Source: Candidatus Omnitrophota bacterium (GTDB taxonomy: Bacteria > Omnitrophota > Gorgyraeia > DTHP01). Taken from it: a DNA stretch of 39,372 nucleotides. Below the pieces are notes generated by a model. The model saw only the letters and a list, made by a program, of their open reading frames with translations. It was not told the origin of the DNA and made no database searches. Positions 6,683 through 29,560 of this stretch are shown here, in pieces (the stretch's first letter is position 1; each line of letters opens with the position of its first letter). Location of the stretch: contig JAMWCW010000013.1 of the NCBI GenBank assembly GCA_023819145.1, positions 1-39,372 of the forward strand. The letters are read 5' to 3'. A program made the translations under genes and the position numbers.

Positions 6683-6707
6683 TAATTAGTTATCAACATT
6701 GTCTTTT

Positions 6708-7859
6708 ATGTCCTTCAGAAGAATTAAGATTTTGCATATCATTACCCATTTAGAATTGGGAGGAGCACAAAGGACTACGCTTGCCCTTATTCAAGGGATT
6801 AATCGGAAGAATTTTGAGATACATTTTATAACTTCTCCTTATGGATATTTAGTTAAAGAACTAAAGAAGATAAGCGGGATTAAGGTTAAATTAATTCCCC
6901 ATTTAAGAAGGGAAATAAACTTAGTAGATGACCTTATTGCTTTTTTAAGATTGTTCAACTATATAAGAAAGAATCATTTTGACATAGTTCATACTCATTC
7001 TCCCAAAGCAGGATTTCTGGGACGCTGGTCAGCGAAATTGGCGGGAGTTCCTTTTATTGTGCATACTGTTCATGGTTTTCCTTTTTATGAAAAAGAAAAT
7101 TTTTTCCTCAAAAGGCTTTACATTCTTGCTGAGAGATTTACAGCGGAAATAACCGATAGACTTATTGTAGTCTGTGAGAGCGATAGGGAAAAAGGAATCT
7201 CTGCCGGCATAGGTTATTATGAAAAATATGTTTTGATTAGAGAGGGGATAGAAGTGGATAGAGGTGGGATTTTTTCTTCCGATATTTTGTACAATAGGTT
7301 AAGAGAGGTTTCTCCGATAATGGGAATGGTTGCTTGTTTAAAAAAGCAAAAAGCTCCTTTTGATTTTGTAAAAATGGCATCTTTGGTCAAGAAAAGATTT
7401 CCTGAAGCAAAATTTGTTCTGGTGGGAGGGGGACCATTGTACAAGAAGGTAGAGAGATTGATCAGGAGGTTAGGTTTAGAAAACAATTTTTTTCTCTTGG
7501 GTTGGAGAGAAGATGTTCTGAAAATAATCTCTTTTTTAGATATAGTTGTGCTTACCAGTTTATGGGAGGGACTACCTCTGGTAATCCTGGAAGCAATGGC
7601 TTTAAAAAAACCAATCGTGGCCACTAGGGTAGATGGTATAAAAGAATTAATTAGGGATGGAGAAAATGGTTTTTTAGTGGAACCCGGTGATTACTGTGGG
7701 CTTGCTCAGAGAGTAATCTTTCTTTTGGAAAATAAAAAATTACAGATAAGTTTTGTAGAGAGAAATCAAGAAATTTTGTCCAAATACAACCTTTCTTCAA
7801 TGATTAAATTGACAGAAGAACTTTATTATAAACTTATGGGGGTGAGTTATGTCCATTAA
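6708..7859 (+). CDS. Family 4 (GT-B) glycosyltransferase
   Basis: This is a retaining GT-B glycosyltransferase expected to extend a lipid-linked glycan at the cytoplasmic membrane face. The N-domain has HIITHLELGGAQRTTLAL and the HTHSPKAGFLGRWSAKLAG acceptor-side loop. The C-domain carries the EX7E-type donor motif EGLPLVILEAMALKKPIVAT followed by DGIKELIRDGENGFLV, typical of GT4. I start it at ATG 6708 (MSFRRIKIL) rather than the in-frame TTG at 6699, because the predicted transcript start would leave almost no leader for the TTG. No clear Shine-Dalgarno is seen. It overlaps the next gene by 11 bases. Substrate is unknown. Confidence 0.88.
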   Translation: MSFRRIKILHIITHLELGGAQRTTLALIQGINRKNFEIHFITSPYGYLVKELKKISGIKVKLIPHLRREINLVDDLIAFLRLFNYIRKNHFDIVHTHSPKAGFLGRWSAKLAGVPFIVHTVHGFPFYEKENFFLKRLYILAERFTAEITDRLIVVCESDREKGISAGIGYYEKYVLIREGIEVDRGGIFSSDILYNRLREVSPIMGMVACLKKQKAPFDFVKMASLVKKRFPEAKFVLVGGGPLYKKVERLIRRLGLENNFFLLGWREDVLKIISFLDIVVLTSLWEGLPLVILEAMALKKPIVATRVDGIKELIRDGENGFLVEPGDYCGLAQRVIFLLENKKLQISFVERNQEILSKYNLSSMIKLTEELYYKLMGVSYVH

Positions 7860-8835
7860 TGTTTTTTTGAGTATTTTTTTATCGGGATTAGTTTTTATCT
7901 TTATCCTCAGGAAATTTTTTCTCCTAATTAAACCGAAAGGATTTTTTGTTGAGAAGGACAAAAGAGGGGTTGTAAAAGTTGGGGGTATAATTTTATGCTT
8001 CTCTTTCTTGTTTGCAGGATTATTTTTCTATCATGATGCTTTCTTTAAGGATTCGCTTAATCTGAAGATTATTCTTACCACTTTTCTTGTTTTTATCCTC
8101 GGTTTAATTGATGATGGAAAGGAATTAAAAATCTGGCAGAAGTTCTTAGGAGAATTAATTATTACTTTCTTTTTTATCCTCATCTCCGGTATGACCACGG
8201 AGATTATTTTTTTTCCTAAAAGTATAAATTTTATCATTACTCTGGTTTGGATATTAGGTATCACTAATGCTTTTAATCTTCTTGATATTCAAGATGGTTT
8301 AGCTGCGGGAGTGGGTTTTTTGATAAGCTTAGCCTTTTTATACTTGGCACATTTTACTGGCAATATCTTTGTAGAGCAAATTTCTTTAATTTTAGCCGGT
8401 GCATTATCAGCTATCCTTATTTTTAATCTTCCCCCGGCAAAAATATATCTTGGAGATTCGGGGAGCCTTTGTTTAGGCTATGTCCTTAGTATTCTGGCGA
8501 TTTCTCTAAGTTATGCTCAGGCTGCGCATGAAATGGCACTGCTCTCTCCTATTTTTATCCTGGGCTTTCCTATCTTTGATACAATTTTTGTAAGTTTAAG
8601 GAGGTTATCCCAGGGAAGGTCTATCTTTAAAAAATCCGATGACCATTTCATTTTCTGCTTGATTAAACAGGGGAGAAAAAAGAGTGCTTTATTTATCTGT
8701 TACTTATTAAGTTTGCTATTTATCAGTTTAGGAATCCTGTTTATGAAGTTAAGTAACCTTTTCAGTCTGGTCCTTATTATTTTATTTCTGAAATTATTAT
8801 ACCACATTTCTTTTAAGGTAAGCAGGGTTCAATGA
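7849..8835 (+). CDS. WecA/TagO/MraY-family polyprenyl-phosphate sugar-1-phosphate transferase
   Basis: This is a polytopic membrane enzyme that starts glycan synthesis by moving a HexNAc-1-phosphate from a UDP-sugar to undecaprenyl phosphate. Family motifs in order are FILGLIDDGKEL (acidic pair), NAFNLLDIQDGLAAG, KIYLGDSGSLCLGYVL, and a C-terminal DDHFIFCLIKQG at the place of the usual HxHH-type loop. That last motif is degenerate compared with WecA. About ten hydrophobic segments span the 328 residues. GTGAG precedes the ATG at good spacing. Murein-specific MraY is unlikely because this gene lies outside the dcw cluster among glycosyltransferases. It is the probable first committed step of the exported glycan. 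Confidence 0.88.
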   Translation: MSINVFLSIFLSGLVFIFILRKFFLLIKPKGFFVEKDKRGVVKVGGIILCFSFLFAGLFFYHDAFFKDSLNLKIILTTFLVFILGLIDDGKELKIWQKFLGELIITFFFILISGMTTEIIFFPKSINFIITLVWILGITNAFNLLDIQDGLAAGVGFLISLAFLYLAHFTGNIFVEQISLILAGALSAILIFNLPPAKIYLGDSGSLCLGYVLSILAISLSYAQAAHEMALLSPIFILGFPIFDTIFVSLRRLSQGRSIFKKSDDHFIFCLIKQGRKKSALFICYLLSLLFISLGILFMKLSNLFSLVLIILFLKLLYHISFKVSRVQ

Positions 8836-10109
8836 AAAATATTTTTATTTTGGGAGCAGGTTTATCGGGACTGAGTTTAGCCTATCATTTACAGAAAAAA
8901 AAGATAGATTGTCAGATTTTTGAAAAAGAGAATGAAATCGGTGGGTTGGCACGGTCTAAAAGGATTTCGGGATTTTGTTTTGACTACGCCGGTCATCTTT
9001 TACATTTCCGCGATAAAAAATTGTTTTCTTTTGTGAAAGGATTGCTTGGGGATAATCTAATCAGACATAAACGGAATGCTTCCATATATTCTTTTCGTAA
9101 GTTTGTTCCCTACCCATTCCAGGCTAATCTCTTTGCTCTCCCCCAGAAAATTAAAGAGGATTGTCTTAAGGGCTTTATAGATACAGGAGAGCATAAAATT
9201 AATAACAATTTTCAAGATTGGGTAATAGAAAAATTTGGTAAAGGGATTGCCAGGTATTTTATGCTTCCCTATAATCACAAATTTTGGACAATTCCCTTGA
9301 AAGAATTGACTTATCTCTGGGTAGATAGATTGATCCCAGTTCCTTCTTTTAGGGAAATAATTGAGGGAGCAAAAGGAAAACTCGATAAAAATTTTGGTTA
9401 TAATGTTTTCTTCTGGTATCCCAGGAATGGGATTTGTGAACTTCCTTTAGCTTTGAGTAAGGAGGTAAAGAATATTTTTACTGATTGTAAAATAAAGGAA
9501 ATCGATCTGAAAAATAAAAAAATTAAATTGGCTAATAATACCTGGGAGAGGTTTACTTATTTATTTTCCACCATTCCCTTACCAGAGTTAATGGACCTTA
9601 TAAAAAATATACCTAAGGAGATGGTTTATTCTTACAAAAAATTACGCTGGAATTCCATATTCAATCTAAACCTCGGCATAGATGGGGAGATCAAACTCCC
9701 TTACCACTGGATATATTTTCCTGAGAAAAAAATATCTTTTTATCGGATAGGTTTTTTTCATAATCTTTCCTCCGAATTGGTTCCTCAAAGAAAAAGTTCT
9801 CTCTACATAGAAATTTCTTATTCAGAATCTAAACCTATCAACAAGAAAGAAATTGTCTTCCGGGCGATAAAAGATTTGATCAGGATAGGTATTCTTAAGA
9901 AAGAAGACCAAATTTTAGTTAAGGACATCAACGATATAGAGTATGGCTATCCCATTTATGATTTTGACTATCCGCAAGCAAGAGAAAATACTTTAAATTA
10001 TTTAAAAGAAAATAATCTTATCTCCTTTGGTCGTTACGGCTCCTGGCGCTATATGTCTATGGAGGATGTTCTTGCAGAAGGTAAAATTTTGGCGATGAGT
10101 TTGAAATGA
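8832..10109 (+). CDS. FAD-dependent amine-oxidase/UDP-galactopyranose-mutase-like protein
   Basis: The N-terminus has a Rossmann FAD-binding motif, FILGAGLSGLSLAYHL, with the acidic end of strand 2 (FEKENEIGGLARS). This is followed by FDYAGHLLHF, as in protoporphyrinogen-oxidase-like and UGM-like proteins of polysaccharide loci. The C-terminus, with GRYGSWRYMSMEDVLAEGK, resembles the closing FAD-contacting segment of that superfamily. The 425 residues are full length. It overlaps both neighbours by four bases. A role in sugar-nucleotide or glycan rearrangement or oxidation is inferred from context only; UGM identity is not established. Confidence 0.78.
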   Translation: MKNIFILGAGLSGLSLAYHLQKKKIDCQIFEKENEIGGLARSKRISGFCFDYAGHLLHFRDKKLFSFVKGLLGDNLIRHKRNASIYSFRKFVPYPFQANLFALPQKIKEDCLKGFIDTGEHKINNNFQDWVIEKFGKGIARYFMLPYNHKFWTIPLKELTYLWVDRLIPVPSFREIIEGAKGKLDKNFGYNVFFWYPRNGICELPLALSKEVKNIFTDCKIKEIDLKNKKIKLANNTWERFTYLFSTIPLPELMDLIKNIPKEMVYSYKKLRWNSIFNLNLGIDGEIKLPYHWIYFPEKKISFYRIGFFHNLSSELVPQRKSSLYIEISYSESKPINKKEIVFRAIKDLIRIGILKKEDQILVKDINDIEYGYPIYDFDYPQARENTLNYLKENNLISFGRYGSWRYMSMEDVLAEGKILAMSLK

Positions 10110-11380
10110 GAATAGAAAGGCATATAAGGAAAAGAGTCCATTTTAAAAGGAGAAGAGATTTTTATAAATATAAAATTGGTGATTTTTTTTACGGCTTGAG
10201 ATACTATTGGCAGGAATATTTAGTAAGTGCGGGCATATTAAAAAACTCTGTTTTTACCGGCCCCACCCTTGTCCAGATAGACCTTACCAATAAATGTAAT
10301 AGTAAATGTCTTGTTTGTTGGCAACGTTCTCCATATTTAGGAGAGTTGAGGGCGACCGGAGAGTGGGAAAACCAAGAAATTTCTTTTACAAGGATAATTA
10401 GTTTATTAAGGGAATTAAAGAAAATGGGAACAAAAAAAATATTTTTTTCCGGTGGAGGGGAACCCCTCATGTATCCTAGATTCTGGAAAGTAATTTCCTA
10501 TGCTAAAAAAATGGGTTTCGTTTGTATACTCAGTTCAAATTTTACACTTGTAGATAGAGAAAAAGCAAAGATATTTATTGATCTAAACTTTGACCATATA
10601 AATGTAAGTTTATGGGCAGCAACTCCTGAGACTTATATGCGCGTGCATCTGGGGAGAGATAAGGAGTGTTTTTACAGAACTAAAGATATATTGCGTTTTA
10701 TTTATGAGCATAAAAAGATTAAACACCTTCCCCATATGAATATTTATAATGTAATTTTTAAAGAAAATTTTTATGAAGTAGACAAGATGGTAGAACTTGC
10801 TTTTGAGGTGGGAGCAGATTCTATTCAGTTTGTCCCTATGGATCCGGTTGTTGGTAAAACTGATTTTTTGTTATTGAATTATAGAGAAAGGGAGATTGTA
10901 AAGGAGAAACTAAAAATGATTAAGCAGAAATTACTTGACGACAATCCCGAGAATAAAAGAGGTCCCAATCTGTTTATCTGTGATTATGAAGATTTTTTAC
11001 GCCGTCTTTCTAATGAGAAAGCAGATAAGGGAGAATACGATTCCTTAGTTAAAGATATCCCCTGTTATATTGGCTGGGATTTTATGCGTATAACTGCTAA
11101 TGGCGATGTTTATCCCTGTTTAAAAGTAAATGTTCCTGTAGGAAATATTTATGAGGAAGATTTGCTTAAAATTTGGTATGGTGAGAAACAGAGGATATTT
11201 AGAAAACTTGCGAAAGAGAAAAAAGAAAATACATATTTTTCTCCTCAGAGGTGCTCTTTAAGCTGTGACAATCTTGCTCAGAATATAATTTTACAGAAAC
11301 AGATTGTTTCTCTTTCCAAGTTAGATAAAATGTTTATGTATTTTTTAAACTATTATGTTTTTTCTGAAAAGATTTACTAA
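10106..11380 (+). CDS. Radical SAM/SPASM protein (paralogue 1 of 3)
   Basis: The radical SAM [4Fe-4S] motif CX3CX2C is at Cys64, Cys68 and Cys71 within LTNKCNSKCLVCWQRSP. It is followed by a SAM-binding glycine motif, SGGGEPLMYP. A C-terminal SPASM-like region with CYIGWDFMRITANGDVYPC and a terminal CSLSCDN cluster should bind auxiliary iron-sulfur centres. It shares the segments SLWA...TY...H and IYNVIF with the genes at 12751 and 18963. About 50 extra basic residues precede the radical SAM core. SPASM enzymes act on peptides, sugars and alcohols; here a sugar or glycan substrate is inferred from the neighbours. It starts inside the stop of the preceding gene. Confidence 0.88.
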   Translation: MRIERHIRKRVHFKRRRDFYKYKIGDFFYGLRYYWQEYLVSAGILKNSVFTGPTLVQIDLTNKCNSKCLVCWQRSPYLGELRATGEWENQEISFTRIISLLRELKKMGTKKIFFSGGGEPLMYPRFWKVISYAKKMGFVCILSSNFTLVDREKAKIFIDLNFDHINVSLWAATPETYMRVHLGRDKECFYRTKDILRFIYEHKKIKHLPHMNIYNVIFKENFYEVDKMVELAFEVGADSIQFVPMDPVVGKTDFLLLNYREREIVKEKLKMIKQKLLDDNPENKRGPNLFICDYEDFLRRLSNEKADKGEYDSLVKDIPCYIGWDFMRITANGDVYPCLKVNVPVGNIYEEDLLKIWYGEKQRIFRKLAKEKKENTYFSPQRCSLSCDNLAQNIILQKQIVSLSKLDKMFMYFLNYYVFSEKIY

Positions 11381-12770
11381 ATCACCAGAGATTGTCTTAG
11401 TTATATCTCCTCCCTGGGACACAATGATGCCTCCATTAGGAATTGCTTATTTAGAAAGCTATCTTAAGGAAAAAGGTTTTCATTCTATAATTCTGGATAT
11501 AAATATTGACCTTTATAATAGCGTAACAAAAAAAGAGAGAATTCTTTGGCGTCCAGAAATGTATCCACACTGGTTTGAAGAAGAGAAGTTTTTGCAATTG
11601 AAGAATTCTTGGGAAATTTATTTTGAAAGATATACTAAAAAAATACTTTTCTTTAAAACTTCCTTTATTGGCTTTTCTGTAAATACCAGTAATCGCCTTT
11701 TCTCCTTAGAATTGGCTAAGCGGATAAAATTAGAGGATAAAAGAAAGACGATAATCTTTGGAGGACCGGCTACTTTTGGCCTTCATTTAGATACTTTCTT
11801 CTTGCGAAAAAAGGACGATCTTCCGGTAGATATTTTTGTAATTGGGGAAGGGGAGGAGACATTATATGAGATTTTATTAACGCAGGACATAGCCAAAGTA
11901 AAAGGAGCAATTTTTAAAAAAAATGGAGGGTATTCTCTGCTTATTCCCCGTTTTCCAATCATGGATATTAATACCATTCCTTTTCCCACTTTTGAAAGTT
12001 TCCCTTTAAATAAATATCTTATTCCTGCTTTACCTTTACTTATTAGTCGGGGATGCGTTTCCAGATGTTCCTTCTGTAACGACCATCGTTTAAGTTTCCC
12101 CTATCGTTATAAAAATCCCCCTTATGTTATTAAAGAAATAGAGTATCATATGAAATACAATGGGATTAATTCTTTTTCTTTTAAAGACCTTCTCTGCAAT
12201 GGGAATATTCCGGTTTTAGAGACCCTTTGTAATTTAATTATTGAAAAAAAACTGAACATAAACTGGGATTCTCAAGCAATTCCCCGTAAAGAAATGGGTT
12301 TTCATCTCTTAGAAAAGATGAAGCGTGCTGGTTGTCATACTCTAATTTATGGTTTAGAAAGTGCCTCCAATAGAGTTTTAAATAAAATGAAAAAGATGTT
12401 CACTAAAGAAATCGCTGAAAGAGTAATCCGAGATACGCACAGAGCAGGCATAAGAGTTTATATAAATATCATTGTTGGTTTTCCTGGGGAAACTGAAGAA
12501 GATTTTATGGAGACATATAATTTTATAAAAGAAAATAGAAAATATATAGATTCCTTAGCTGCTTTGAGTGTCTGTTTGGTTAATGGAGAGACAGACTTAG
12601 AATTTAATCCTTCAAAATATGGGTTACTGCTTCCTGATGAACCAGAGAAGAGAGCACGCTTTTGGAAAGACATTTACGGTAACGATTATCACTTAAGAAA
12701 AGAGAGAGCGGAAAGAATACTTTCTCTTCTAAGAGAATTAAATCTTTCCTATGATTCCCTTAATGTCTAA
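11355..12770 (+). CDS. B12-binding-type radical SAM protein
   Basis: The N-terminal ~190 residues have the cobalamin-binding-domain layout seen in this superfamily: SPPWDTMMPPLGIAYLESYL, then GGPATFG and VIGEGEETL. I do not see the DxHxxG base-off histidine motif. The radical SAM core has CX3CX2C at Cys234, Cys238 and Cys241 (SRGCVSRCSFCN) and the downstream YGLESASNRVLNKM and IVGFPGETEEDF motifs. Such enzymes catalyse C-methylations, ring contractions and other difficult C-C or C-S chemistry. It overlaps the SPASM genes on both sides (26 and 20 bases), indicating one operon. Substrate is unknown. Confidence 0.87.
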   Translation: MFFLKRFTKSPEIVLVISPPWDTMMPPLGIAYLESYLKEKGFHSIILDINIDLYNSVTKKERILWRPEMYPHWFEEEKFLQLKNSWEIYFERYTKKILFFKTSFIGFSVNTSNRLFSLELAKRIKLEDKRKTIIFGGPATFGLHLDTFFLRKKDDLPVDIFVIGEGEETLYEILLTQDIAKVKGAIFKKNGGYSLLIPRFPIMDINTIPFPTFESFPLNKYLIPALPLLISRGCVSRCSFCNDHRLSFPYRYKNPPYVIKEIEYHMKYNGINSFSFKDLLCNGNIPVLETLCNLIIEKKLNINWDSQAIPRKEMGFHLLEKMKRAGCHTLIYGLESASNRVLNKMKKMFTKEIAERVIRDTHRAGIRVYINIIVGFPGETEEDFMETYNFIKENRKYIDSLAALSVCLVNGETDLEFNPSKYGLLLPDEPEKRARFWKDIYGNDYHLRKERAERILSLLRELNLSYDSLNV

Positions 12771-13962
12771 AAAAGAGAGAGTAAAATTATTAGCAGGGAT
12801 TTTTCATGGAAGAAAGGCTTTTCTTGGTCCACAGGTAATACATCTGGATTTAACCAATTTGTGTAATAATAATTGTATTGGTTGTTGGTGTCGTTCTCCA
12901 TTATTAAAAGATAAAGAGATGCCTGATTGGGAAAAAGGGTTATCCCTTCCTTTTGAAATTGTTAAAGGAGTAATTGATGATTGTTTAAAAATGGGAGGAT
13001 TGATACAGGTAAAACTTGTGGGTGGGGGAGAACCTTTTATGCATCCGGATATTTTAAAAATTATAAGATATATTAAAGGGAGAAAAAAAGAAATTGAGAT
13101 TGATATAAATACTAACTTTACCCTCGTAGATAAAAAGATTGCCCAAGAGTTAATAGATTTAGAAGTAGATTCGCTTACTGTAAGTCTCTGGGCGGGGGAT
13201 AGCAAAACTTATGCCATAACCCATCCCAATAAGGATGAAGATACTTTTTATCGTATTGAAGGGGTTTTAAAATATTTGGCGGAGAAAAAGAATAGTAAGC
13301 CCTATATAAAAATTTATAATGTTATTTTTAATCTCAATTATCAAAAAATTGAAGAGATGCTTCAGTTTGCCTTAGCAGTAAAAGCCGAAGACATTCAGTT
13401 TGTTCCCTTGGACCCCATCCCTGGGAGAACAGATTGTCTTCTGCTCAATAAAAAGGAAAAAGAAGAGTTATGGGAGAAATTATCTTTGCTTGAAAAATAT
13501 TACGACCCTCTAAATCAACGATACAATTACAATGGCAAAAGCATTATCGTTACCGATTTCCTTGGGTTTTTGAGAAGGTTAAAAGAAACTTCGGAATTCG
13601 GTGCTTACGATATTAAGTGTGTTGATAAATTTCCCTGTTATGTGGGGTGGTTATTTTCCCGGATAATGGCTACGGGAAATGTTGTTCCCTGCTGTAAAGG
13701 GCATCGCTTGGTTTTAGGAAATATTTATAAAAAAAGTTTCTACAAAATCTGGAATTCAGAACTCTACGAGCAATTCAGATACAAGGCTAAAAATTTGTCC
13801 AAAAAAGATACCTTTTTTTCTCAAATAGGGAATCAGGCAAATCCCGAGACCGGTTGTTACAATTGCGATAATCTCTGGCAGAATGAGCCAATGCATAGAC
13901 AAATTGAATCCTTAAATGGAAGAAAGAGAATATTAATTAAAGCCTTCTCATGGTTTTATTAA
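12751..13962 (+). CDS. Radical SAM/SPASM protein (paralogue 2 of 3)
   Basis: CX3CX2C is at Cys38, Cys42 and Cys45 (LTNLCNNNCIGCWCRSP), with the triple-Gly SAM motif VGGGEPFMHP. The C-terminal SPASM-like region has CYVGWLFSRIMATGNVVPCC and GCYNCDN. It shares SLWAGDSKTY...HP and IYNVIFNLNY with the 10106 and 18963 genes, so the three are clear paralogues. The N-terminus is shorter, with only ~28 residues before the core. The ATG at 12763 is an alternative start that reduces the overlap with the upstream gene. It overlaps the wzm gene by 13 bases, linking it to glycan export. Confidence 0.88.
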   Translation: MIPLMSKKERVKLLAGIFHGRKAFLGPQVIHLDLTNLCNNNCIGCWCRSPLLKDKEMPDWEKGLSLPFEIVKGVIDDCLKMGGLIQVKLVGGGEPFMHPDILKIIRYIKGRKKEIEIDINTNFTLVDKKIAQELIDLEVDSLTVSLWAGDSKTYAITHPNKDEDTFYRIEGVLKYLAEKKNSKPYIKIYNVIFNLNYQKIEEMLQFALAVKAEDIQFVPLDPIPGRTDCLLLNKKEKEELWEKLSLLEKYYDPLNQRYNYNGKSIIVTDFLGFLRRLKETSEFGAYDIKCVDKFPCYVGWLFSRIMATGNVVPCCKGHRLVLGNIYKKSFYKIWNSELYEQFRYKAKNLSKKDTFFSQIGNQANPETGCYNCDNLWQNEPMHRQIESLNGRKRILIKAFSWFY

Positions 13963-14732
13963 AGAGGATTAAGATTGTTTTTTTTAATCGGGAAATGCTT
14001 AAAAATTTAATCAAAAAAAATTTAAGGTCCTATTATGTAAATTCTTTATTGGGGATAAGCTGGGCAATTATTATCCCTTTAATTTTGATGTTTGTTCTAA
14101 GTTTTATTTTTCAAAATATTCTAAAAATTGAGATTGAGAATTTCCCTCTCTATGTTCTTTCAGGACTTATTCCATTTATGTTTTTTGCTTCTTCTTTAAC
14201 TCAGGCAGCCAATTCTTTGGTGGAGAATATTTATCTTTTAAGACAATTTAATTTACCCAAAGAGATAATCCCCCTTTCTATCATTATCACCAATTTTTTA
14301 AATTTTTTACTGGGCTTTTTGGTGCTTATTCCGATCTTTGTTCTTTCTAATCCTCGCATTCTTCTTTCACTATCTTTTTTATTCTTTATCATTCCCATAT
14401 TTTCAATTTTTGTAATGGGCATAAGTTTATTTTTTTCTGCGCTCAATGTTTTCTTTCGCGATTTATCTCATCTCTTAGGTGTTCTGATTATGTTTTTCTT
14501 TTGGATTACACCCATCTTTTATAAGGAAGAGATGATTCCTACTCAATATCGCTGGATTATTGATTTCAACCCTTTAAGCATTTATATAAATTTATTCAGG
14601 AATATATTGTTAAATGGTAGAGTTAGGGAGTTTAAGTTTATTTCTTTTAGTCTGTTATGGGCAGGGTTATTTTTTTTCATCGGCTATTATTTTTTTCTAA
14701 GAACGGAGTCAAATTTTCTTAAAAGGATTTAA
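13950..14732 (+). CDS. wzm: Wzm-type ABC-2 polysaccharide export permease
   Basis: This 260-residue integral membrane protein has the ABC-2 permease layout. An amphipathic N-terminal stretch ends in the conserved RSYYVNSLLGISWAIIIPLI, followed by about six membrane helices. The late segment FFWITPIFYKEEMI...RWIIDFNPLS is typical of O-antigen and teichoic acid exporters (Wzm/TagG). It forms the membrane channel for a lipid-linked glycan with the ATPase encoded immediately downstream, with no intergenic base between them. It overlaps the SPASM gene upstream. Confidence 0.9.
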   Translation: MVLLKRIKIVFFNREMLKNLIKKNLRSYYVNSLLGISWAIIIPLILMFVLSFIFQNILKIEIENFPLYVLSGLIPFMFFASSLTQAANSLVENIYLLRQFNLPKEIIPLSIIITNFLNFLLGFLVLIPIFVLSNPRILLSLSFLFFIIPIFSIFVMGISLFFSALNVFFRDLSHLLGVLIMFFFWITPIFYKEEMIPTQYRWIIDFNPLSIYINLFRNILLNGRVREFKFISFSLLWAGLFFFIGYYFFLRTESNFLKRI

Positions 14733-16760
14733 ATGAAAATTATAGAGTTAAAAGATGTCTGGGAAAGATATAGGATTAAATTTATTGAAAATGGTAAAGT
14801 TTTCTGGGAGGATTTCTGGGCTTTAAAAGGGATTAATCTGGAGATAGAAAAAGGAGAGACTATTGCCATTGTGGGAGAAAATGGAGCCGGCAAAACTACC
14901 CTTTTGAAGGTAATTGCCGGATTACTTGTTCCTGATAGAGGGGAAGTGAAAGTTGAAGGAAAAGTATCCAGTCTTTTTGAGCCAGGATTAGGGTTTCATC
15001 CTGAACTTACGGGAAAAGAGAATATCTATTTAACTGCGAGCTTATTTGGTCTAAAAAAGGAGGAAATAGATAGTTTGTTTGAACAAATTTGTGATTTTGC
15101 CGATATCGGTAAATTTATTAATTCCCCTTTAAAATATTATTCCCAGGGAATGTTTGTGAGGCTTTCCTTTTCCATTGCCGTGCATCTTTTCCCGGATATC
15201 TTTTTGATTGATGAGATTCTTACCGTAGGAGATATAGGATTTCAAAAAAAATGTATCCATAAATTGTTCGAATTAAAAGATAAAGGGCTTACTTTAATTT
15301 TAGTTACTCAGGATTTATCTCTGGCGCAAAAGATAGCAAAAAGAGGAATTTTTTTAAAGGAGGGAAAGATTATTAAAGATGATTCTATAGAGAAAGTAAC
15401 TTCTTCCTATATAGAGAGTATTAAAAAAGAAGAAACTTCTAATAAAAGAGAAACGAAGAAAGAAATTATCAGTGTTGACCGACTGAAGTTATTAGCTGAA
15501 GAAGGCAGTATAAAGATATTCTGGGAAGGGAAAGAAATAACCAAAGGTAAAGGACTTTATACAGCAATAAATTCACTTAATAAATGGTATCACTCTTTTG
15601 ATTTTCCCATAAAGATAGAAAAATTGAATGAAAAAAATCTTGCAATAATTGTTTACTATCCTCATTTATCCTTAAAAGAATATATTAAGCTCAATATTCT
15701 GACAGAGAAAGAAATATCTTTGGAAATAGAGATGGAATTAGAGAAAGAAATTCTTTTTTCAAATCGCGATGTTCGCCTGGAGGTTATCTCCATTTATCAA
15801 ACCTGGTTAACGGATGAAGAAGAGGGGTTTTTTTCAGAAAAATTTTTTAATGGAATAAGTCCGGTAAGATTAAAGAATAACCGCGTAAAAGCATTGGGAT
15901 TAAAAGAAAAAGATGGGCTTCCGCATTTTATTTTCTCCATTAATAATACAGGGAATTGGCTTTCTTCTCTTTACAAGAGAAAAGAAGAAGATGAAAAAAT
16001 AGTTCTTCAGTTTTCTGAAATAATTCCTAAGAAAAATCAAAAATTCTTTCCAGGAAGATATACTTTTTTTAAAGGAAAGATAATTTTTGACAGAGAATTG
16101 GCGAGAAAAGAAATAATTTCTTGTGTTTATCCTATAATTAAAAAGGAAGATTTGGAATTTGTTTTTGCAGAAGGAAGGGGAAGGATATTTTGGAAAGATA
16201 TGGAAATTACATCTGGTTTAGGGATGTATACATCTTTTCGGGTTAAAGGAATCTGGTATGATTCAAGTTTAGCCATATGGGAAATTAGAGAAAATACTTC
16301 CCGAGAAATAGAGGTTTTGGGAAGCTGGCCTTATATTTCTCTTTCTCAATTCTGGAAAATTTCTCTCTCAGATGTTGGAAAGATTCTCTGGAGAGTAGAA
16401 ACAGAGATAGCCGAGAAAACAGATTTGGAGTTGGAACACATAGGTCTTATGTTTATTCCTGAATACAAAAATTGGATAGCCCAAAATATCTATAAAGGTG
16501 ATTTTAGTGAGGAATTTTCTGAGGATTACGATATCCTTCCTTTTCGTTTTTTCTATGGTCGGGCAGATGAGCTGAAATCTTCTGTTCCAGGTCTTCCTTC
16601 TCTGATATTCAGAGTTTTAAATAAAGATAATTCTTTGCGAGCGATGATTGGAAATAGTGATTACTTATATAAAGCAAGACTCTTTCAATATCAGAGAAAT
16701 TTAGCAGGAGAAATATTAAAATTAAAAGAACATTTCTTAGGGGAGGTGGAGCTAAAATAA
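14733..16760 (+). CDS. wzt: Wzt-type ABC exporter ATPase with a long duplicated C-terminal region
   Basis: Residues 1-~230 form the ATPase that powers glycan export with Wzm. They show Walker A GENGAGKTT (about 48-56), the signature YSQGM (about 136-140) and Walker B IFLIDE (Asp160/Glu161) with the VGD motif usual in Wzt. The H-loop position reads LVTQDLS, so the switch histidine is Gln193. Residues ~251-455 and ~471-656 are two copies of an unrecognised domain opening with IFWEGKEIT and IFWKDMEIT. This domain recurs in the next protein. Wzt C-terminal domains commonly bind the glycan end; that role is inferred here. At 675 residues it is longer than most Wzt. Confidence 0.9.
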   Translation: MKIIELKDVWERYRIKFIENGKVFWEDFWALKGINLEIEKGETIAIVGENGAGKTTLLKVIAGLLVPDRGEVKVEGKVSSLFEPGLGFHPELTGKENIYLTASLFGLKKEEIDSLFEQICDFADIGKFINSPLKYYSQGMFVRLSFSIAVHLFPDIFLIDEILTVGDIGFQKKCIHKLFELKDKGLTLILVTQDLSLAQKIAKRGIFLKEGKIIKDDSIEKVTSSYIESIKKEETSNKRETKKEIISVDRLKLLAEEGSIKIFWEGKEITKGKGLYTAINSLNKWYHSFDFPIKIEKLNEKNLAIIVYYPHLSLKEYIKLNILTEKEISLEIEMELEKEILFSNRDVRLEVISIYQTWLTDEEEGFFSEKFFNGISPVRLKNNRVKALGLKEKDGLPHFIFSINNTGNWLSSLYKRKEEDEKIVLQFSEIIPKKNQKFFPGRYTFFKGKIIFDRELARKEIISCVYPIIKKEDLEFVFAEGRGRIFWKDMEITSGLGMYTSFRVKGIWYDSSLAIWEIRENTSREIEVLGSWPYISLSQFWKISLSDVGKILWRVETEIAEKTDLELEHIGLMFIPEYKNWIAQNIYKGDFSEEFSEDYDILPFRFFYGRADELKSSVPGLPSLIFRVLNKDNSLRAMIGNSDYLYKARLFQYQRNLAGEILKLKEHFLGEVELK

Positions 16761-18997
16761 TGATGTGGATAAAATCAAACTACCAGAAATTTAGAAAACA
16801 CTTTAAAGATAAGGGATTTTTTTATGCTCTCTGGAGGGGAATAAAATATTTTGTTTATCTTATAAAAAAATATAAAGGGGAGAAAAAACTGCACTTTAAA
16901 AAGAAGACCCTTAAGAAAGGAGGTACGGAGGTAGTTTGTTTTGATAAAAACATAAAGATTTTTTGGAAAGAAAAAGAAATTACTAAAGATGTGGGATTAA
17001 ATACATCTTTAATCATAAAAGGTAATTGTTTTACTTCTCCAAAGGCAAAATGGAAGGTAAAAATTATAGATACCGATATCCTTTCAATTTTAGTTATTTG
17101 GAAGAAAATTCCTATTAGACAGGATTGGTTAATAAAATTGGTCTCTCCCGATAAAATCGTATGGTTAGTAGATATAGAAATAAAGAAAGATATTTCTTTT
17201 GAAGAAAGAAAGGCCAGCATTATGGTTTCTTCTTTATATAAGCGCTGGATTAATTCCTATGAAGAAGGTTTTTTCCCAGTCATTAGAAACTGGGAAGAAA
17301 TTCCCCTGCAGTTAAAAGAAAGTAAATTTATTGGGGTTAGGACTTTTGAAAACGACTTACTCAATATTATCTTTGATTATGCAAAAAATTATTTTAAAAC
17401 TTCTCCTTCTCTACAGAATACTGGCAAAGAAAATAATGCCCGGGTTTTAAATGCCTGTATGGGTAAAGAGGATTACAAGAAAGGGAAATATCCATATTTT
17501 AGAGGAGAAATTTTATTAATTAAGGATGAGCAGATTTTGGAAAATTATATTGAAAAGGCAAGGGGAGAGTTCACAAAAAAAATTTTCTTAAATAAAAAAG
17601 ATGATTTTAAAGTTGTCTTAGTAAATCTTCCTTGGCAGAGAGATGGTAAATGGGGAGTGCGTGCCGGTTCACGCTGGCCACATATAAAAACTGAAGAAGA
17701 GAATAACTATCAACCTTTTCCTTTCTTTTTGGCTTACTCTGCCAGTCTCCTCAAAAATAATGGTTTTGAAGTTTATCTCATTGATTGTCTTGCAGAAAAG
17801 ATAGATTTTATAAAACTCAAGCAGAAAATCAAAGAGATAAAACCTCAGCTTTTGTTAGCCGAAACTTCTACCCCATCTCTGTATAACGATTTAGAGATTT
17901 TGGAACAGCTCTCTGGAAATTTTCCTATTGCCCTTTCCGGACCGGAGGCAAATATAAGAAAAAAAGAATTTCTGGAGAGGAATCCTTTTATTGATTTTGT
18001 TTTGGTAGGTGAATATGAAGTAACCCTTTTAGAGTTAGTAAAGAGCATAAAAGAGAATCTCTCTTTTCAAAATATCCTTGGTTTAATTTATAGAAGTGAC
18101 GGAGAGGTAAAGATAAATCCTCCGCGTCCACTGATTAAAGACTTAGACTCTCTACCCTGGCCATTAAGGGAAGGTTTACCCATGGAGAGTTATATTGATG
18201 CTCCCGGAGAGATGCCTTTACCCTCAGTGCAGATGTGGTCAAGCAGAGGCTGTATTTTTAAGTGTCTGTTCTGTCTCTGGCCATCGCTGATGTACCAAGG
18301 AAATATTTTTCGCACAAGAAATCCTTTAAAAGTTGTAGAGGAGATGGAATATTTAGTTAAAGAGATGGGATTTAGGTCTATTTATTTTGATGACGATACC
18401 TTTAATATTGGTAAAGAAAGAGTTTTAGAGATTTGTAGGCAAATAAGAAAATATAAACTCAACATTCCTTGGGCAATAATGGCAAGGCCGGATTTAATGG
18501 ATAAAGAGATGCTTTCTGCTTTGAAGGAAGCCGGTGTATGGGCAATAAAGTATGGTGTAGAATCAGGAGAGCAAAAATTATTAGACAAGATTGGTAAGAA
18601 TATGAATCTCCAAAAAGCGATAGAGATGATTCGTTTGACTAAAAAATTGGGGATAAAATTTCATCTTACCTTTATGTTTGGTCTGCCTGGAGAAACTATG
18701 GGCTCAATCAAAGAAACAATTGAGCTTGCAATAGACCTTGCTCCTTTTTCTCTCCAGTTTTCCTTAGTTACCCCTTTCCCGGGGACAAGTCTTTTTGAAT
18801 ACTGTAAAGATTCAGAGGAAATTGCTTCCTATGATTGGGAAGCGTATGATGGGAATTACAATTGTGTGATAAATACAGAAGCCTTAACCTCTAAGGAGAT
18901 AGAGAATTTTAAAAATCTTGCTTTGCAAATCTGGAGAGATTATCAAAAAGGGATTTTAAGCTATGCAGAGGCCTGTAAAATCCTACCAAAGACTTAG
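16760..18997 (+). CDS. B12-type radical SAM protein with N-terminal Wzt-tail-like domain
   Basis: Residues ~56-265 match the repeated domain of the Wzt tail: IKIFWKEKEIT at 65-75, then YKRWI...EEGFF at 160-172. Residues ~283-430 form a B12-binding-type domain without a visible DxHxxG. The radical SAM core follows with CX3CX2C at Cys498, Cys502 and Cys505 (SSRGCIFKCLFC), then YFDDDTFN, KYGVESGEQKLLDKIGK and FGLPGET. The shared domain suggests that it acts on, or docks to, the glycan handled by the exporter; this is inference. The ATG overlaps the last base of wzt. At 745 residues it is longer than the other B12-type proteins here by that extra domain. Confidence 0.88.
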   Translation: MMWIKSNYQKFRKHFKDKGFFYALWRGIKYFVYLIKKYKGEKKLHFKKKTLKKGGTEVVCFDKNIKIFWKEKEITKDVGLNTSLIIKGNCFTSPKAKWKVKIIDTDILSILVIWKKIPIRQDWLIKLVSPDKIVWLVDIEIKKDISFEERKASIMVSSLYKRWINSYEEGFFPVIRNWEEIPLQLKESKFIGVRTFENDLLNIIFDYAKNYFKTSPSLQNTGKENNARVLNACMGKEDYKKGKYPYFRGEILLIKDEQILENYIEKARGEFTKKIFLNKKDDFKVVLVNLPWQRDGKWGVRAGSRWPHIKTEEENNYQPFPFFLAYSASLLKNNGFEVYLIDCLAEKIDFIKLKQKIKEIKPQLLLAETSTPSLYNDLEILEQLSGNFPIALSGPEANIRKKEFLERNPFIDFVLVGEYEVTLLELVKSIKENLSFQNILGLIYRSDGEVKINPPRPLIKDLDSLPWPLREGLPMESYIDAPGEMPLPSVQMWSSRGCIFKCLFCLWPSLMYQGNIFRTRNPLKVVEEMEYLVKEMGFRSIYFDDDTFNIGKERVLEICRQIRKYKLNIPWAIMARPDLMDKEMLSALKEAGVWAIKYGVESGEQKLLDKIGKNMNLQKAIEMIRLTKKLGIKFHLTFMFGLPGETMGSIKETIELAIDLAPFSLQFSLVTPFPGTSLFEYCKDSEEIASYDWEAYDGNYNCVINTEALTSKEIENFKNLALQIWRDYQKGILSYAEACKILPKT

Positions 18998-20204
18998 AGA
19001 AATTTTTATGGATAACACATTTCCCGAGGCGATATCTAAAATTTTTAGCTATTTTAGACCTTCGGTAATCAAAGACAAATATTTTTACCTTAAAGGGATA
19101 AAGAGTAAACAGTTTGCCTTCTCTGGTCCGTTATCGGTTCAAATAGATTTAACTGATGAGTGTAATAGCCATTGTCTTGCCTGCTGGTGCAATTCTCCTT
19201 TACTGGGAGAAAACAATAAAAATAAGGATTCCCTTGCCTTTCCTTTAGTAATTAATCTTCTTGAAGAATTGGAATACTTAAGGACAAGAGAAATTGTTCT
19301 CTCTGGTGGAGGGGAGCCTTTTTTACATCCGCATATTCTTGAGATAATAAAAAGAATTAAGCAAAAAAAATTTATCTGTCACATCAATACAAATTTTACT
19401 TTATTAAATAAAAAAATCATAGATGAACTTATCAAATTGAGATTGGATTATCTTACCATTAGTCTCTGGGCAGGTTCAGTTAAGACCTATAGAATGGTTC
19501 ATCCTCATAGAACTGATGAAGATTTTTGTAGAATAAAAGAAAATTTAATTCTTCTAAATTCTTTAAAAAGAAAATTACCCAAAGTGAAGGTTTACAATGT
19601 GATTTTTAATTTAAATTACTTTGAAATGGAAGAGATGCTTGAATTTGCAGAAGATGTAAGGGCAGATTATATTGAATATACGATTTTAGATGTAATTCCT
19701 GATAAAACCGCTGTTTTATTGCCCAATAGGGAAGAATTTAATAGAATAAAAGAGATTTCTCAGAGAATTCTACAGAGAAAAAATAAAATAAAAATCTTAA
19801 ATTTTGAACATTTTTTAAGAAGAATTTCTCAAGAGGAAGCGATAAAAGGAGAATATGAAAAAAATTTTATTGAGAACATTCCCTGTTACAGTGGCTGGTT
19901 ATTTTCGCGAATTTTAGCCAATGGTGAGGTTACCCCCTGTCTTAAGGCGCATCGTTTTCCTGTAGGGAATTTGTATAAAAATAGTTTTAGGGAAATCTGG
20001 AATGGAGAGTTAATGCAGGAATTTAGAAGAAAAACTATTGATGGAAATAAAAACGATGGTCTTTTTTATCTTATAGGAAATGGAGACGGAAAGGAGATAG
20101 GTTGTTTGCGTATCTGTGATGATTTGATGCGCAATTTCTATTTTTATAATAAAATTAACTCTTTAACTTATTTAGAGGGGATAATCTATAGGCTAATTCC
20201 ATGA
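18963..20204 (+). CDS. Radical SAM/SPASM protein (paralogue 3 of 3)
   Basis: CX3CX2C is at Cys67, Cys71 and Cys74 (LTDECNSHCLACWCNSP), with the triple-Gly motif LSGGGEPFLHP. The SPASM-like region has CYSGWLFSRILANGEVTPC and a terminal CLRICDD. It shares SLWAGSVKTY...HP and VYNVIFNLNY with the 10106 and 12751 genes. The start given overlaps the upstream gene by 35 bases; ATG 19008 (MDNTFPEA) would leave a 10-base gap and is equally plausible. Its stop overlaps the start of the small membrane ORF at 20201. Function is probably modification of the exported glycan or its precursor (inference). Confidence 0.87.
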   Translation: MQRPVKSYQRLREIFMDNTFPEAISKIFSYFRPSVIKDKYFYLKGIKSKQFAFSGPLSVQIDLTDECNSHCLACWCNSPLLGENNKNKDSLAFPLVINLLEELEYLRTREIVLSGGGEPFLHPHILEIIKRIKQKKFICHINTNFTLLNKKIIDELIKLRLDYLTISLWAGSVKTYRMVHPHRTDEDFCRIKENLILLNSLKRKLPKVKVYNVIFNLNYFEMEEMLEFAEDVRADYIEYTILDVIPDKTAVLLPNREEFNRIKEISQRILQRKNKIKILNFEHFLRRISQEEAIKGEYEKNFIENIPCYSGWLFSRILANGEVTPCLKAHRFPVGNLYKNSFREIWNGELMQEFRRKTIDGNKNDGLFYLIGNGDGKEIGCLRICDDLMRNFYFYNKINSLTYLEGIIYRLIP

Positions 20205-20317
20205 GATTATATCGGGGTATTGTTATATTTTGCTTATTTTTAATGGGTATTTTTGTAGAGATTTATCTTTTATTTCTTAAAAAATTGCGGGGCTGGATAA
20301 TTTTCCCGGGAAGATGA
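20201..20317 (+). CDS. 38-residue single-pass membrane peptide
   Basis: This short open frame fills the 110-base space between the SPASM gene and the next glycosyltransferase. Its ATG overlaps the upstream TGA (ATGA) and its own TGA overlaps the downstream ATG (ATGA), so both junctions have the coupled-translation geometry used throughout this operon. The peptide starts with two basic residues and has one hydrophobic span (about residues 7-26), then KKLRG and an aromatic tail, FPGR. No family is recognised. The double overlap argues for a real gene, but no clear Shine-Dalgarno is visible, so a spacer that happens to be open cannot be excluded. Confidence 0.55.
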   Translation: MRLYRGIVIFCLFLMGIFVEIYLLFLKKLRGWIIFPGR

Positions 20318-21492
20318 GAATTTTAATGCTTCATCCCCATGACATATTTTCTCCTTTAGAGCCTTGGACGATAAGGATTGTTAGTTTTGCTAAGGAGTTT
20401 ACTAAGTTAGGCTATAAAGTAAAATTGGTTTATTTTCCTCTTGAGTTTAGTACTCAGACTAAACCCCAATATCTCAATCCCTCTTTAGAAGTAATCCCTT
20501 TGAGAAGAGAATTAGGTTTGATTAATTTTATTAAAAACATAATTATCGTAAATAAATTGGCAAAATGGGCAGAGATAATCCATTTTCAAAAATGTTTTTA
20601 TTGGGCGTCTATTCCTGCTTTGCTTGCTTCTTTTTTGAATAATAAACCTATCCATTACGACTGGGATGACTGGGAGACAGAAATATTTTATGAATGTCCT
20701 GATTCTCACTTTTTAAGGAATCTTGTAGGAAGATTTATGCGCCTTACAGAAAATTTAATTCCTCACTTGGTAGATACAATTTCTGTATCCAGTCAAGCCC
20801 TTTACGATTTATGTGTTAAATTGTGTATTCCTGAAGAAAAAATTTATATTGTTTCTGTGGGTGCAGATTTGGAGAAGTTTAATCCTAATGTTTCAGGAGA
20901 GGAGATTAAAAAAAGATTTAATCTCAGAGGAAAGGTTGTCCTTTATCTTGGTCAACTCCACAGTGGGCAATATGCGGAGCAATTTATTTATACAGCAAAT
21001 GAAATTTTAAAGGAAAAAAAAGATGAAGAAATTAATTTTCTTATTGTCGGAGGAGGGTTTAAACTAAATCATTTAAAGGAGCTTACAAAAAAACTTAATC
21101 TGGATAGCAGAGTTATCTTTACTGGACCCGTTACCCATAATGAGGTTCCTAAGTTTATTGCAGCCAGTGATATTTGCATAGCCTGTTTTGAAGATAACAG
21201 AATTACACGCTGTAAGAGCCCTTTAAAGATTACAGAATACCTTGCCTCGGGTAAGGCAATTGTTGCTTCGGATGTGGGCGAGGTGAGAAAAATGTTAAAT
21301 GGGGCAGGGATTTTGATTAAGCCTGAGGATATCCGGGCTTTAAAAAGAGGAATTAATGTGCTCTTAAAGGATAGATATTTAAAAGAGGATTTAGAAAAAA
21401 AATCCCGAGAAAGAGCAGAAAGATATACCTGGCGTATCTCGGCAGAAAAAATTCTTAATGCTTATTTAAAAAACCTTTCTAATAAAAGTTAA
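20314..21492 (+). CDS. GT4-type glycosyltransferase
   Basis: This is a GT-B fold glycosyltransferase. The N-terminus MRILMLHPHDIFSP carries the nucleotide-sugar enzyme start typical of GT4. The middle has the HYDWDDWE motif, which resembles DLDDWE in the gene at 26107. The C-domain has VVLYLGQLHSGQ, a second Rossmann sheet, and a donor-site segment SPLKITEYLASGKAIVASDVGEV with the conserved Glu. The 392 residues are full length. It starts within the small ORF at 20201 and is followed four bases later by a GT2 gene. Sugar specificity cannot be read from sequence. Confidence 0.85.
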   Translation: MRILMLHPHDIFSPLEPWTIRIVSFAKEFTKLGYKVKLVYFPLEFSTQTKPQYLNPSLEVIPLRRELGLINFIKNIIIVNKLAKWAEIIHFQKCFYWASIPALLASFLNNKPIHYDWDDWETEIFYECPDSHFLRNLVGRFMRLTENLIPHLVDTISVSSQALYDLCVKLCIPEEKIYIVSVGADLEKFNPNVSGEEIKKRFNLRGKVVLYLGQLHSGQYAEQFIYTANEILKEKKDEEINFLIVGGGFKLNHLKELTKKLNLDSRVIFTGPVTHNEVPKFIAASDICIACFEDNRITRCKSPLKITEYLASGKAIVASDVGEVRKMLNGAGILIKPEDIRALKRGINVLLKDRYLKEDLEKKSRERAERYTWRISAEKILNAYLKNLSNKS

Positions 21493-21495
21493 TTT

Positions 21496-22236
21496 ATGGC
21501 TAAAAATTTGACACTTATTTTTCCAGTAAGGAATGAGAAAGAGAATCTAAAGATTTTACTTCCCCGAGTAGAAAAATTATTGGATTCACGGACAGAAATA
21601 ATTATCGTAGACGATGGTTCAAACGATGGCTTAGAAGAAATTAAAGACATTTTTTCGTTTTTAAATCTTAAAATTGTTAAAAATAGAAAAAGAGGATTAG
21701 CCTCAGCCATTGATACGGGAATTAAAAATGCAACTACTGAAATTATTTGCTGGATGGATGCAGATTTATCTATGCCTGTAGAACTTATCCCCGAAATGGT
21801 TAAATTTATTTCTGAATACGCTATAGTGGTTGGTTCGCGTTATATATGTTCAGGAAAAGATAAGAGAAATAATAGAATACGCGTTTTAACTTCAAAATTA
21901 TTTAATTTAATGAGTAAAAAAATATTGAATACAGAAACTTGTGACCTCACTTCGGGGTTTATAGCTATAAGAAAAGAGGTATTGAAAGAATTAAAAATAG
22001 AAGGCAAACTTGGAGAATATTTTTTAAATCTAATTTTTCAAGCAGAAAAAAAGGGATTTAGAATTAAAGAGATTCCCTATATATTTCAAGAGAGAAGAAA
22101 AGGGAAAAGTAAAATCGCCCCCACTCCTTTTGTATTTTTAAGAAACTCTCTGTTTTACCTCAGGATGTTACTCCGGCTTAAATTTTGTAATTTATTTTCC
22201 GGTAAAGATAATAAAGTCTTGGATAAGGAGACTTAA
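21496..22236 (+). CDS. DPM1-like GT2, polyprenyl-phosphate glycosyltransferase
   Basis: This is a GT-A fold, inverting GT2. It has the N-terminal FPVRNEKENLKILLPR, the IIVDDGSNDG nucleotide motif, WMDADLSMP (metal-binding DxD) and GSRY, and TCDLTSGFIAIRKEV as in dolichol- or undecaprenyl-phosphate mannosyl/glucosyl transferases. At 246 residues it matches soluble or peripheral DPM1 forms without the C-terminal membrane pair. It probably makes a polyprenyl-phosphate sugar that the GT39-like enzyme on the opposite strand could use as donor. Its 3' end overlaps that convergent gene by 59 bases. Confidence 0.83.
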   Translation: MAKNLTLIFPVRNEKENLKILLPRVEKLLDSRTEIIIVDDGSNDGLEEIKDIFSFLNLKIVKNRKRGLASAIDTGIKNATTEIICWMDADLSMPVELIPEMVKFISEYAIVVGSRYICSGKDKRNNRIRVLTSKLFNLMSKKILNTETCDLTSGFIAIRKEVLKELKIEGKLGEYFLNLIFQAEKKGFRIKEIPYIFQERRKGKSKIAPTPFVFLRNSLFYLRMLLRLKFCNLFSGKDNKVLDKET

Positions 22237-29012: not shown

Positions 29013-29057
29013 AAAAATTTTGGGTTCAATTATTTTGGATGAACTAGAAAGTCAAAG

Positions 29058-29096
29058 TAATTTGACAAAACAGGACAGTCCTTTATTGTAAAATTA
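29058..29096. repeat. 39-bp REP-like palindrome, copy 1
   Basis: The outer arms TAATTTGACAA and TTGTAAAATTA pair with one mismatch. The centre AGGAC-A-GTCCT is a perfect small hairpin, separated from the arms by 3-base unpaired spacers (AAC/TTA). It lies between the 27213 gene and the truncated TauE-like gene, whose homology begins at its right edge. It is the same element as the copies at 33589, 34984 and 35899. Confidence 0.88.
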
Positions 29097-29104
29097 CATC
29101 AGCG

Positions 29105-29560
29105 GTGAGTATTATTTTACTAATTATGGGAAGTTTAATTCTTAAGAATTTTATCTTTAAAAATAGAGAGATGAATAAAGAAATAAAATCATATTCAAAA
29201 AATAAACTTAAAATTTTAGGTTTTTTTGCCGGTTTTATTGATGCTATTGGTGGAGGGGGATGGGGTCCAATATATACCTCTACCCTTGTGGTTGGAGGAA
29301 CAGAACCTAACAAAGTAGTGGGTTCGGTTAATTTTGCTAAGTTTTTTGTTGCATTGGTGATGAGCTTTACATTTTTATCTCTTTTAAAGCCTGAAAATTT
29401 TCGCTGGGATATCGTCTTAGCGCTTTCCATAGGAGGAATTATTTCAGATCCTTTTGCCGCCTACATCTGTAATAAACTTCCAAAGCGTATTTTGGGGATT
29501 TTGGTAAGATTAATGGTAATCATTTTAAGCATATGGAGACTCTTAAGATGTCAGATTTAG
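29105..29560 (+). pseudogene. TauE/SafE-family anion exporter, N-terminal half missing
   Basis: The 151 residues carry one membrane helix and then the C-terminal half of a TauE/SafE permease: LGFFAGFIDAIGGGGWGPIY, followed by VGGTEPNKVVGSVNFAKFFV and two further helices. Family members are usually about 250 residues with two such halves, and here the first half is gone. The frame stays open upstream through ITSAVSII into the 39-bp palindrome at 29058-29096, where a TGA closes it, so the break coincides with the repeat. The only start is a GTG at 29105 with no good RBS. It may be a remnant, or a half-size protein. It overlaps cysD, consistent with a former sulfur-assimilation operon. Confidence 0.68.

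Follow-up and report, generated by a model that had tools for sequence, protein, structure and literature searches.

A domain shared by a Wzt exporter ATPase and a neighbouring radical SAM enzyme in Candidatus Omnitrophota suggests radical remodelling of a surface glycan at its exporter

Why should the exporter of a surface polysaccharide be encoded in the midst of five radical S-adenosylmethionine (SAM) enzymes? The question is raised by a contig of a Candidatus Omnitrophota bacterium (JAMWCW010000013.1, assembly GCA_023819145.1), which was analysed from position 1 to 39,372 on its forward strand (the window, 39,372 nucleotides). A cassette of seven genes at 10106–20204, S1-B1-S2-wzm-wzt-B2-S3, encodes three radical SAM/SPASM enzymes (S1, S2 and S3) and two B12-type radical SAM enzymes (B1 and B2), together with the permease Wzm and the ATPase Wzt of an ATP-binding cassette (ABC) exporter. 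A first-pass annotation had proposed a pathway for a modified surface glycan or a peptide-glycan, with radical chemistry preceding export. That reading was partly supported, and the link between enzymes and exporter appeared stronger than it had stated: an approximately 220-residue domain, here termed DOM, had been overlooked, of which two copies form part of the Wzt tail and one lies at the N-terminus of B2. On balance, the locus probably serves to remodel a polyprenyl-linked glycan by radical chemistry at its exporter, with DOM binding the glycan and thereby keeping both the enzymes and Wzt on the chain. The cassette comprises:

10106–11380, plus strand: S1, radical SAM/SPASM enzyme (Pfam)
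11355–12770, plus strand: B1, radical SAM enzyme with a B12-binding domain (Pfam); weak likeness to radical SAM enzymes of the peptide-methylating and P-methyltransferase types, under every cut-off
12751–13962, plus strand: S2, radical SAM/SPASM enzyme (Pfam)
13950–14732, plus strand: Wzm, ABC-2 permease of the glycan exporter (Pfam ABC2_membrane; NCBIfam Wzm/RfbD-like, under cut-off)
14733–16760, plus strand: Wzt, exporter ATPase of 675 amino acids (Pfam ABC_tran at residues 31–162), with a long C-terminal extension made up of two DOM copies
15447–16124, plus strand: DOM copy 1 in Wzt, residues 239–464
16125–16757, plus strand: DOM copy 2 in Wzt, residues 465–675
16760–18997, plus strand: B2, radical SAM enzyme of 745 amino acids with a B12-binding domain and an N-terminal DOM (Pfam, NCBIfam, PDB sequences); nearest to HpnJ and AprD4
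16892–17557, plus strand: DOM copy in B2, residues 45–266
18963–20204, plus strand: S3, radical SAM/SPASM enzyme (Pfam); in relatives mostly adjoining B2 or fused with it

The gene order and common strand given in the first-pass annotation were confirmed by open reading frames (ORFs) and Pfam matches. All cassette genes had been described as overlapping; this held for most neighbours, which overlap by 1–35 bases, whereas wzm and wzt only abut. The enzymes carried the Radical_SAM domain, and the CxxxCxxC motif did not vary in the alignments of B2 and of the S proteins. A B12-binding Pfam domain was present in B1 and B2, for which use of cobalamin is putative. S1, S2 and S3 shared 38–43% identity with one another. 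The 1.5-Mb assembly contained 7 SPASM and 14 B12-domain matches in total. By chance, 0.14 such matches would be expected per 10.1 kb, and at least five have a Poisson probability of 4e-7, a crude figure since genes of the same pathway cluster. Six of the seven SPASM matches belonged to this locus or to its orthologous second copy on contigs C7 and C8.

The long extensions of Wzt and B2 were not recognised by Pfam in the protein scan. Pairwise comparison of the DOM copies within them gave E values of 1e-15 to 3e-17. A profile built from only the Wzt-borne copies of other genomes matched the B2 copy (E 2e-45), and a profile built from only radical SAM-borne copies matched both Wzt copies (E 6e-41 and 2e-40). 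W, Y, W, F and P occupied near-invariant positions. Comparison of 140 DOM members with Pfam yielded no meaningful match (two single chance-level ones only), and matches to PDB sequences were likewise at chance level only.

In known exporters, the position after the ATPase domain of Wzt is held by Wzt_C (PF14524), which recognises the glycan (PMC9445017). Wzt_C was absent from the window's own genome. It was present on Wzt proteins near B2-type genes in archaea (L139, the closed genome AR15, and L140) and in a Desulfobulbaceae locus (L143), with E values of 1e-23 to 1e-27. In addition, two DOM-less Omnitrophota loci (L176 and L177) retained a backbone of glycosyltransferase GT4a, WecA, FAD oxidoreductase, Wzm and Wzt, in which Wzt bore Wzt_C. 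DOM thus takes the place in which a domain that binds glycan would be expected. A glycan would be the common factor, because DOM associates with the exporter ATPase, with radical SAM enzymes and with membrane glycosyltransferases, and the chain is what these share. The best reading of its position and associations is that DOM acts as a new glycan-binding module in place of the classical Wzt domain.

The distribution of DOM over proteins was consistent with a close coupling of enzymes and exporter. In loci selected by B2, DOM proteins comprised 31 Wzt proteins, 50 radical SAM proteins (B2, SPASM or B1 in varying combination), 17 DOM-only proteins and one glycosyltransferase; standalone and tandem copies occurred beside Wzt and B2. 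In loci selected by DOM, it was also found on PMT-type glycosyltransferases, following their membrane segments. One relative (L065) encodes a single protein of 1902 amino acids, Wzt-DOM-DOM-B2-DOM-SPASM, without an internal stop, in which Pfam recognised ABC_tran, a B12-binding domain, two radical SAM domains and SPASM. Of the 50 Omnitrophota loci, 23 had B2 fused to SPASM; DOM-B2-B1 fusions occurred in L093 and L102; a 1680-residue protein of L075 combined DOM, B2, SPASM and B1, as confirmed by Pfam. Proteins of approximately 1920 residues with four radical SAM motifs (B2 plus three SPASM) were encoded in L183, L184 and L185, each followed by a second protein with three more such motifs (1310–1311 residues in L184 and L185, limited by the end of the stretch in L183). 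Pfam was also applied to the same giant protein, of the B2-plus-three-SPASM type, from L078.

Two further features were observed at such loci. Downstream of the B2-SPASM fusion in L085, eight consecutive proteins of approximately 330–357 residues with the radical SAM cysteine motif (one of them checked by Pfam) were encoded at 12786–21112, and similar arrays occurred in L090, L092, L104 and L109. A conserved predicted small membrane protein of approximately 98 residues, possibly a membrane anchor, was encoded between Wzt and the B2-SPASM fusion in L083 (6304–6603) and L085 (9696–9995), and also in L076, L088, L089 and L094. It had no Pfam match and was rejected as a precursor or recognition element (RRE) of ribosomally synthesised and post-translationally modified peptides (RiPPs).

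Conservation of the locus was examined at two scales. In a sample of 99 genomes taken around the window's assembly, DOM was found in 20; close B2 orthologs, set apart by a clear break in E values from 1e-172 to 1e-117, were found in 19. Both were present in 18 genomes, one only in 3 and neither in 78 (11 families; Fisher 1.4e-16, a value that is indicative only, as the sampled genomes are related to each other). Wzt_C occurred in 27 of the 99 and showed no association with B2 (p = 0.77). A scan of species genomes with a B2 profile yielded 80 named loci, mostly from Candidatus Omnitrophota. Among the 50 Omnitrophota loci, neighbours were counted where the flank sufficed: B2 was accompanied by a SPASM gene of this type in 39 of 42, by DOM in 34 of 36 and by Wzt in 27 of 36. 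As the first-pass annotation would predict, radical SAM genes remained next to wzm/wzt in many Omnitrophota families. The full set of S1, S2, S3, B1 and B2 with Wzm, DOM-bearing Wzt and glycosyltransferase GT4b was found again in four other genomes (L058, L093, L102 and L103), where a tree supported orthology for S1 (95/89) and S2 (100/99), with only 83/65 for S3. A search for conservation of the order itself gave a mixed outcome: gene content was retained across relatives and gene order was shuffled. B2-type genes that lack DOM but have GT4b and SPASM-type genes next to them or fused to them were also encountered in L098, L126, L139 and L151 (Woesearchaeota, Nanoarchaeota and the closed genome AR15), which suggests exchange across domains of life.

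The 5' part of the window encodes cell-division and wall functions (murG, murC, murB, ddl, ftsQ and ftsA). These are followed by a glycan operon consisting of a GT4 glycosyltransferase, a WecA/TagO-type transferase, an FAD oxidoreductase, the seven-gene cassette and two glycosyltransferases. Two further B12-type genes, placed at 24634 and 35937 by the first-pass annotation, were recovered there as B3 and B4. The genes around the cassette are:

6699–7859, plus strand: GT4a, glycosyltransferase (Pfam Glycos_transf_1), with which the conserved glycan operon opens; found again upstream of Wzm in relatives
7849–8835, plus strand: WecA/TagO-like polyprenyl-phosphate sugar-phosphate transferase (Pfam PF00953); conserved neighbour, predicted to initiate the chain on the lipid carrier
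8832–10109, plus strand: FAD-dependent oxidoreductase, PRK07208-like (Pfam/NCBIfam); conserved neighbour
20314–21492, plus strand: GT4b, glycosyltransferase; recurring partner of B2 and S3, archaeal versions included
21496–22236, plus strand: GT2 glycosyltransferase
22178–23902, minus strand: PMT/GT39-like membrane glycosyltransferase; without DOM here, DOM being present on relatives of this type
24634–26061, minus strand: B3, B12-type radical SAM enzyme; without a counterpart in the second copy
26107–27201, plus strand: GT4c, glycosyltransferase; conserved
35937–37406, plus strand: B4, B12-type radical SAM enzyme resembling AprD4; its counterpart in the second copy shares 91% identity
37388–38317, plus strand: GT2-family glycosyltransferase after B4; conserved

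The likely chemistry of the enzymes was approached through their nearest relatives. None of the window's radical SAM proteins reached the cut-off of any curated NCBIfam family, tRNA and cofactor families included, so that clustering with such unrelated functions, which would have spoken against a glycan pathway, was not seen. HpnJ (TIGR03471, cut-off 577.6) was the best curated family for B2 (244.1 bits), B4 (155) and B3 (118). B2 scored 110.6 bits with AprD4 (NF033070, cut-off 500), B1 112.1 bits with RiPP radical SAM C-methyltransferases (TIGR03975, cut-off 281.85), and the best scores with SPASM cofactor or RiPP maturases (TIGR04317, PqqE and others) were 94–105 bits against a cut-off of 380. 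Because no cut-off was reached, the proteins were not assigned to the HpnJ, AprD4 or BtrN families. By sequence, the closest solved structure for B2 (E 1e-29; profile E 1.6e-32) and for B4 was AprD4 (PDB 6FD2); other matched structures were 9ccb and 8vpo, listed without a functional name. BtrN, which oxidises an aminocyclitol, was among the structures closest to the SPASM proteins (SPASM profile E 1e-8), this weak similarity being confined to the auxiliary-cluster region. HpnJ makes a cyclitol ether from bacteriohopanetetrol glucosamine, an aminosugar on a lipid (PMC12583986), and AprD4, the radical SAM diol-dehydratase of the apramycin pathway, works together with AprD3 in the deoxygenation of paromamine (PMC5461906). 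The B2 score lay well under the HpnJ cut-off, B2 differs from HpnJ in carrying DOM, and no hopanoid genes were visible in the window. The nearest characterised relatives nevertheless point to sugars and cyclitols as substrates: aminosugars, a glycosylated lipid, a cyclitol. C-methylation, which had been taken as the default for the B12-type enzymes, is not favoured for B2, whose nearest relatives dehydrate or rearrange sugars; several radical SAM enzymes that depend on B12 do something other than methylate (PMC13142503). Most likely B2 deoxygenates or rearranges a sugar, and the SPASM enzymes probably catalyse dehydrogenation or epimerisation.

An ABC-2 permease gene adjoining a polysaccharide-type ABC ATPase gene (Pfam, NCBIfam), linked to an initiating transferase for the lipid carrier (PF00953 at 7849) and to glycosyltransferases at 6699, 20314 and 21496, is the arrangement of the ABC-dependent O-antigen systems of Escherichia coli O9a (WbdD), Aquifex aeolicus and Klebsiella pneumoniae O4, O7 and O12. 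In such systems, recognition of a cap by the Wzt domain gates export (PMC9445017, PMC11231755), and in K. pneumoniae O7 a domain like a carbohydrate-binding module (CBM) has been predicted in the terminator enzyme (PMC11231755). A C-terminal extension of Wzt and a coupling of chain-modifying enzymes to the exporter, here seen from genes alone, are further likenesses. In contrast, the modifying enzymes are radical SAM proteins rather than a kinase/methyltransferase or a Kdo transferase, the Wzt extension belongs to another domain family and is common to the modifying enzymes, and in one relative the exporter ATPase is fused to them. Judged by its genes, the locus represents ABC-dependent glycan export in a variant form, distinguished by enzyme-exporter fusions and by a shared domain absent from Pfam. 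In the literature searched, which did not extend to the survey by Mann, Kimber and Whitfield (2019; cited in PMC11231755) of chain termination and of CBMs associated with ABC transporters, no paper on radical SAM/SPASM enzymes with Wzt was found.

Gene content, conservation, the common domain, the fusions and the co-occurrence are read from sequence; DOM–glycan binding, the chemistry and the order of modification and export are what we infer from them. A chain would be started on polyprenyl phosphate by the WecA-like enzyme, extended by GT4 enzymes and remodelled on the cytoplasmic side by a team of SPASM and B12-domain radical SAM enzymes. DOM would keep these enzymes and the Wzt ATPase on one chain, so that the modified chain could be handed straight to the exporter, which would probably refuse an unmodified one, and reach the surface by the ABC-transporter pathway. 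More tentatively, and with the odds somewhat against it, the locus may represent an assembly line in which a handful of giant proteins, one of them joined to the exporter ATPase itself, bring together as many as seven radical centres; a new carbohydrate-binding domain family would hold them on the membrane-bound glycan, and export would depend on completed radical modification.

Several observations weigh against remodelling at the exporter as proposed. Comparison of DOM and Wzt_C revealed no detectable sequence or profile similarity (hhalign probability <1%), and DOM was rejected as a divergent Wzt_C. The AprD4 match covered only the radical SAM core and C-terminus of B2, with the B12-like domain outside it, and the AprD4 substrate is a free pseudodisaccharide. 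B2 relatives outside Omnitrophota were frequently without nearby Wzm/Wzt, and B2 chemistry is thus not bound to this exporter in every lineage. The relatives are, moreover, mostly metagenome assemblies. In the main rival reading, DOM serves protein-protein docking: it would assemble enzymes and exporter into a complex without touching the glycan, channelling being achieved by a scaffold. Tandem and standalone copies beside Wzt and B2, the presence of DOM at either end of enzymes and its lack of similarity to known carbohydrate-binding families would all suit such a role. Cytoplasmic docking is harder to picture for copies that follow the membrane part of PMT-type glycosyltransferases (orientation assumed), and the known glycan-binding Wzt_C occupies the same Wzt position in DOM-less lineages; a docking-only role is accordingly considered rather unlikely.

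It is less probable still that the radical SAM enzymes work in the cytosol on the production of unusual nucleotide sugars, with no tie to the exporter beyond a common operon and with fusions that reflect co-expression only. Among known sugar-active radical SAM enzymes, several do take nucleotide-bound sugars or free small molecules as substrates, as exemplified by DesII of the TDP-desosamine pathway (PMC11434129) and by AprD4, which acts on paromamine (PMC5461906). In a soluble pathway of this kind, one would not expect the exporter ATPase to share a domain with the enzymes, or a single Wzt-radical SAM-radical SAM protein to occur. That the substrate is a ribosomal peptide or glycopeptide, with maturation by the SPASM enzymes and passage through the ABC pair, is very improbable even though SPASM enzymes are commonly peptide maturases and B1 had a low score with RiPP C-methyltransferases (112 bits, cut-off 282), because no precursor gene was found and none fits into 10106–20204 and no RRE-type protein was found among the window proteins scanned, while the neighbours are glycosyltransferases and a WecA-type enzyme and the recurring approximately 98-residue ORF of some relatives resembles a small membrane protein; the peptide-glycan idea of the first-pass annotation was accordingly not supported. 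Remodelling of a lipid-linked surface glycan at the exporter, supported by conservation, the common domain and the one-polypeptide fusion, would therefore remain the preferred account of the locus.

The orthologous locus in the same assembly, wall genes included, is split at a contig end between C7 (L022, 1–20000) and C8 (L023, 1–13300). Identity between the copies was 57–71% for wall genes and 76–91% for radical SAM and exporter genes, and identity at fourfold sites rose from 33–45% (wall genes) to 45–76% (cassette). Duplication of the cassette within one organism is unlikely, as the murG–ftsA genes are also present twice at 57–71% identity; the assembly bin probably combines sequences from two related organisms, and the difference in identity suggests a more recent common ancestry, or exchange, of the cassette relative to the wall genes. 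The region 27213–34979 of the window encodes two sulfatase-family proteins, a TauE-like protein, CysD- and CysN-like proteins and a phosphodiesterase-family protein. In the second copy, this block is missing from the interval that separates the orthologs of GT4c and B4, and similar sulfatase, phosphodiesterase and CysD genes lie close to B2 in archaeon AR15 (L139). An IS200/Y1-type transposase-like gene (35024–35914) adjoins the block directly before B4. At 38504–39186, a nucleotidyltransferase (MNT-like) and a HEPN-domain gene form a pair with the typical shape of a toxin-antitoxin module.

Radical SAM enzymes have been studied mostly on small molecules, peptides and RNA. If the proposed remodelling is correct, exporter-associated radical SAM enzymes would open up radical chemistry on polymers at the membrane, and DOM would be a candidate for a new class of glycan-binding module. 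The natural single-protein fusion of Wzt with radical SAM enzymes offers a direct structural target, and DOM is suited to separate expression and a glycan-binding assay. The papers found say little of the surface chemistry of Omnitrophota, whose cells would, on this proposal, carry chemically unusual surface glycans.

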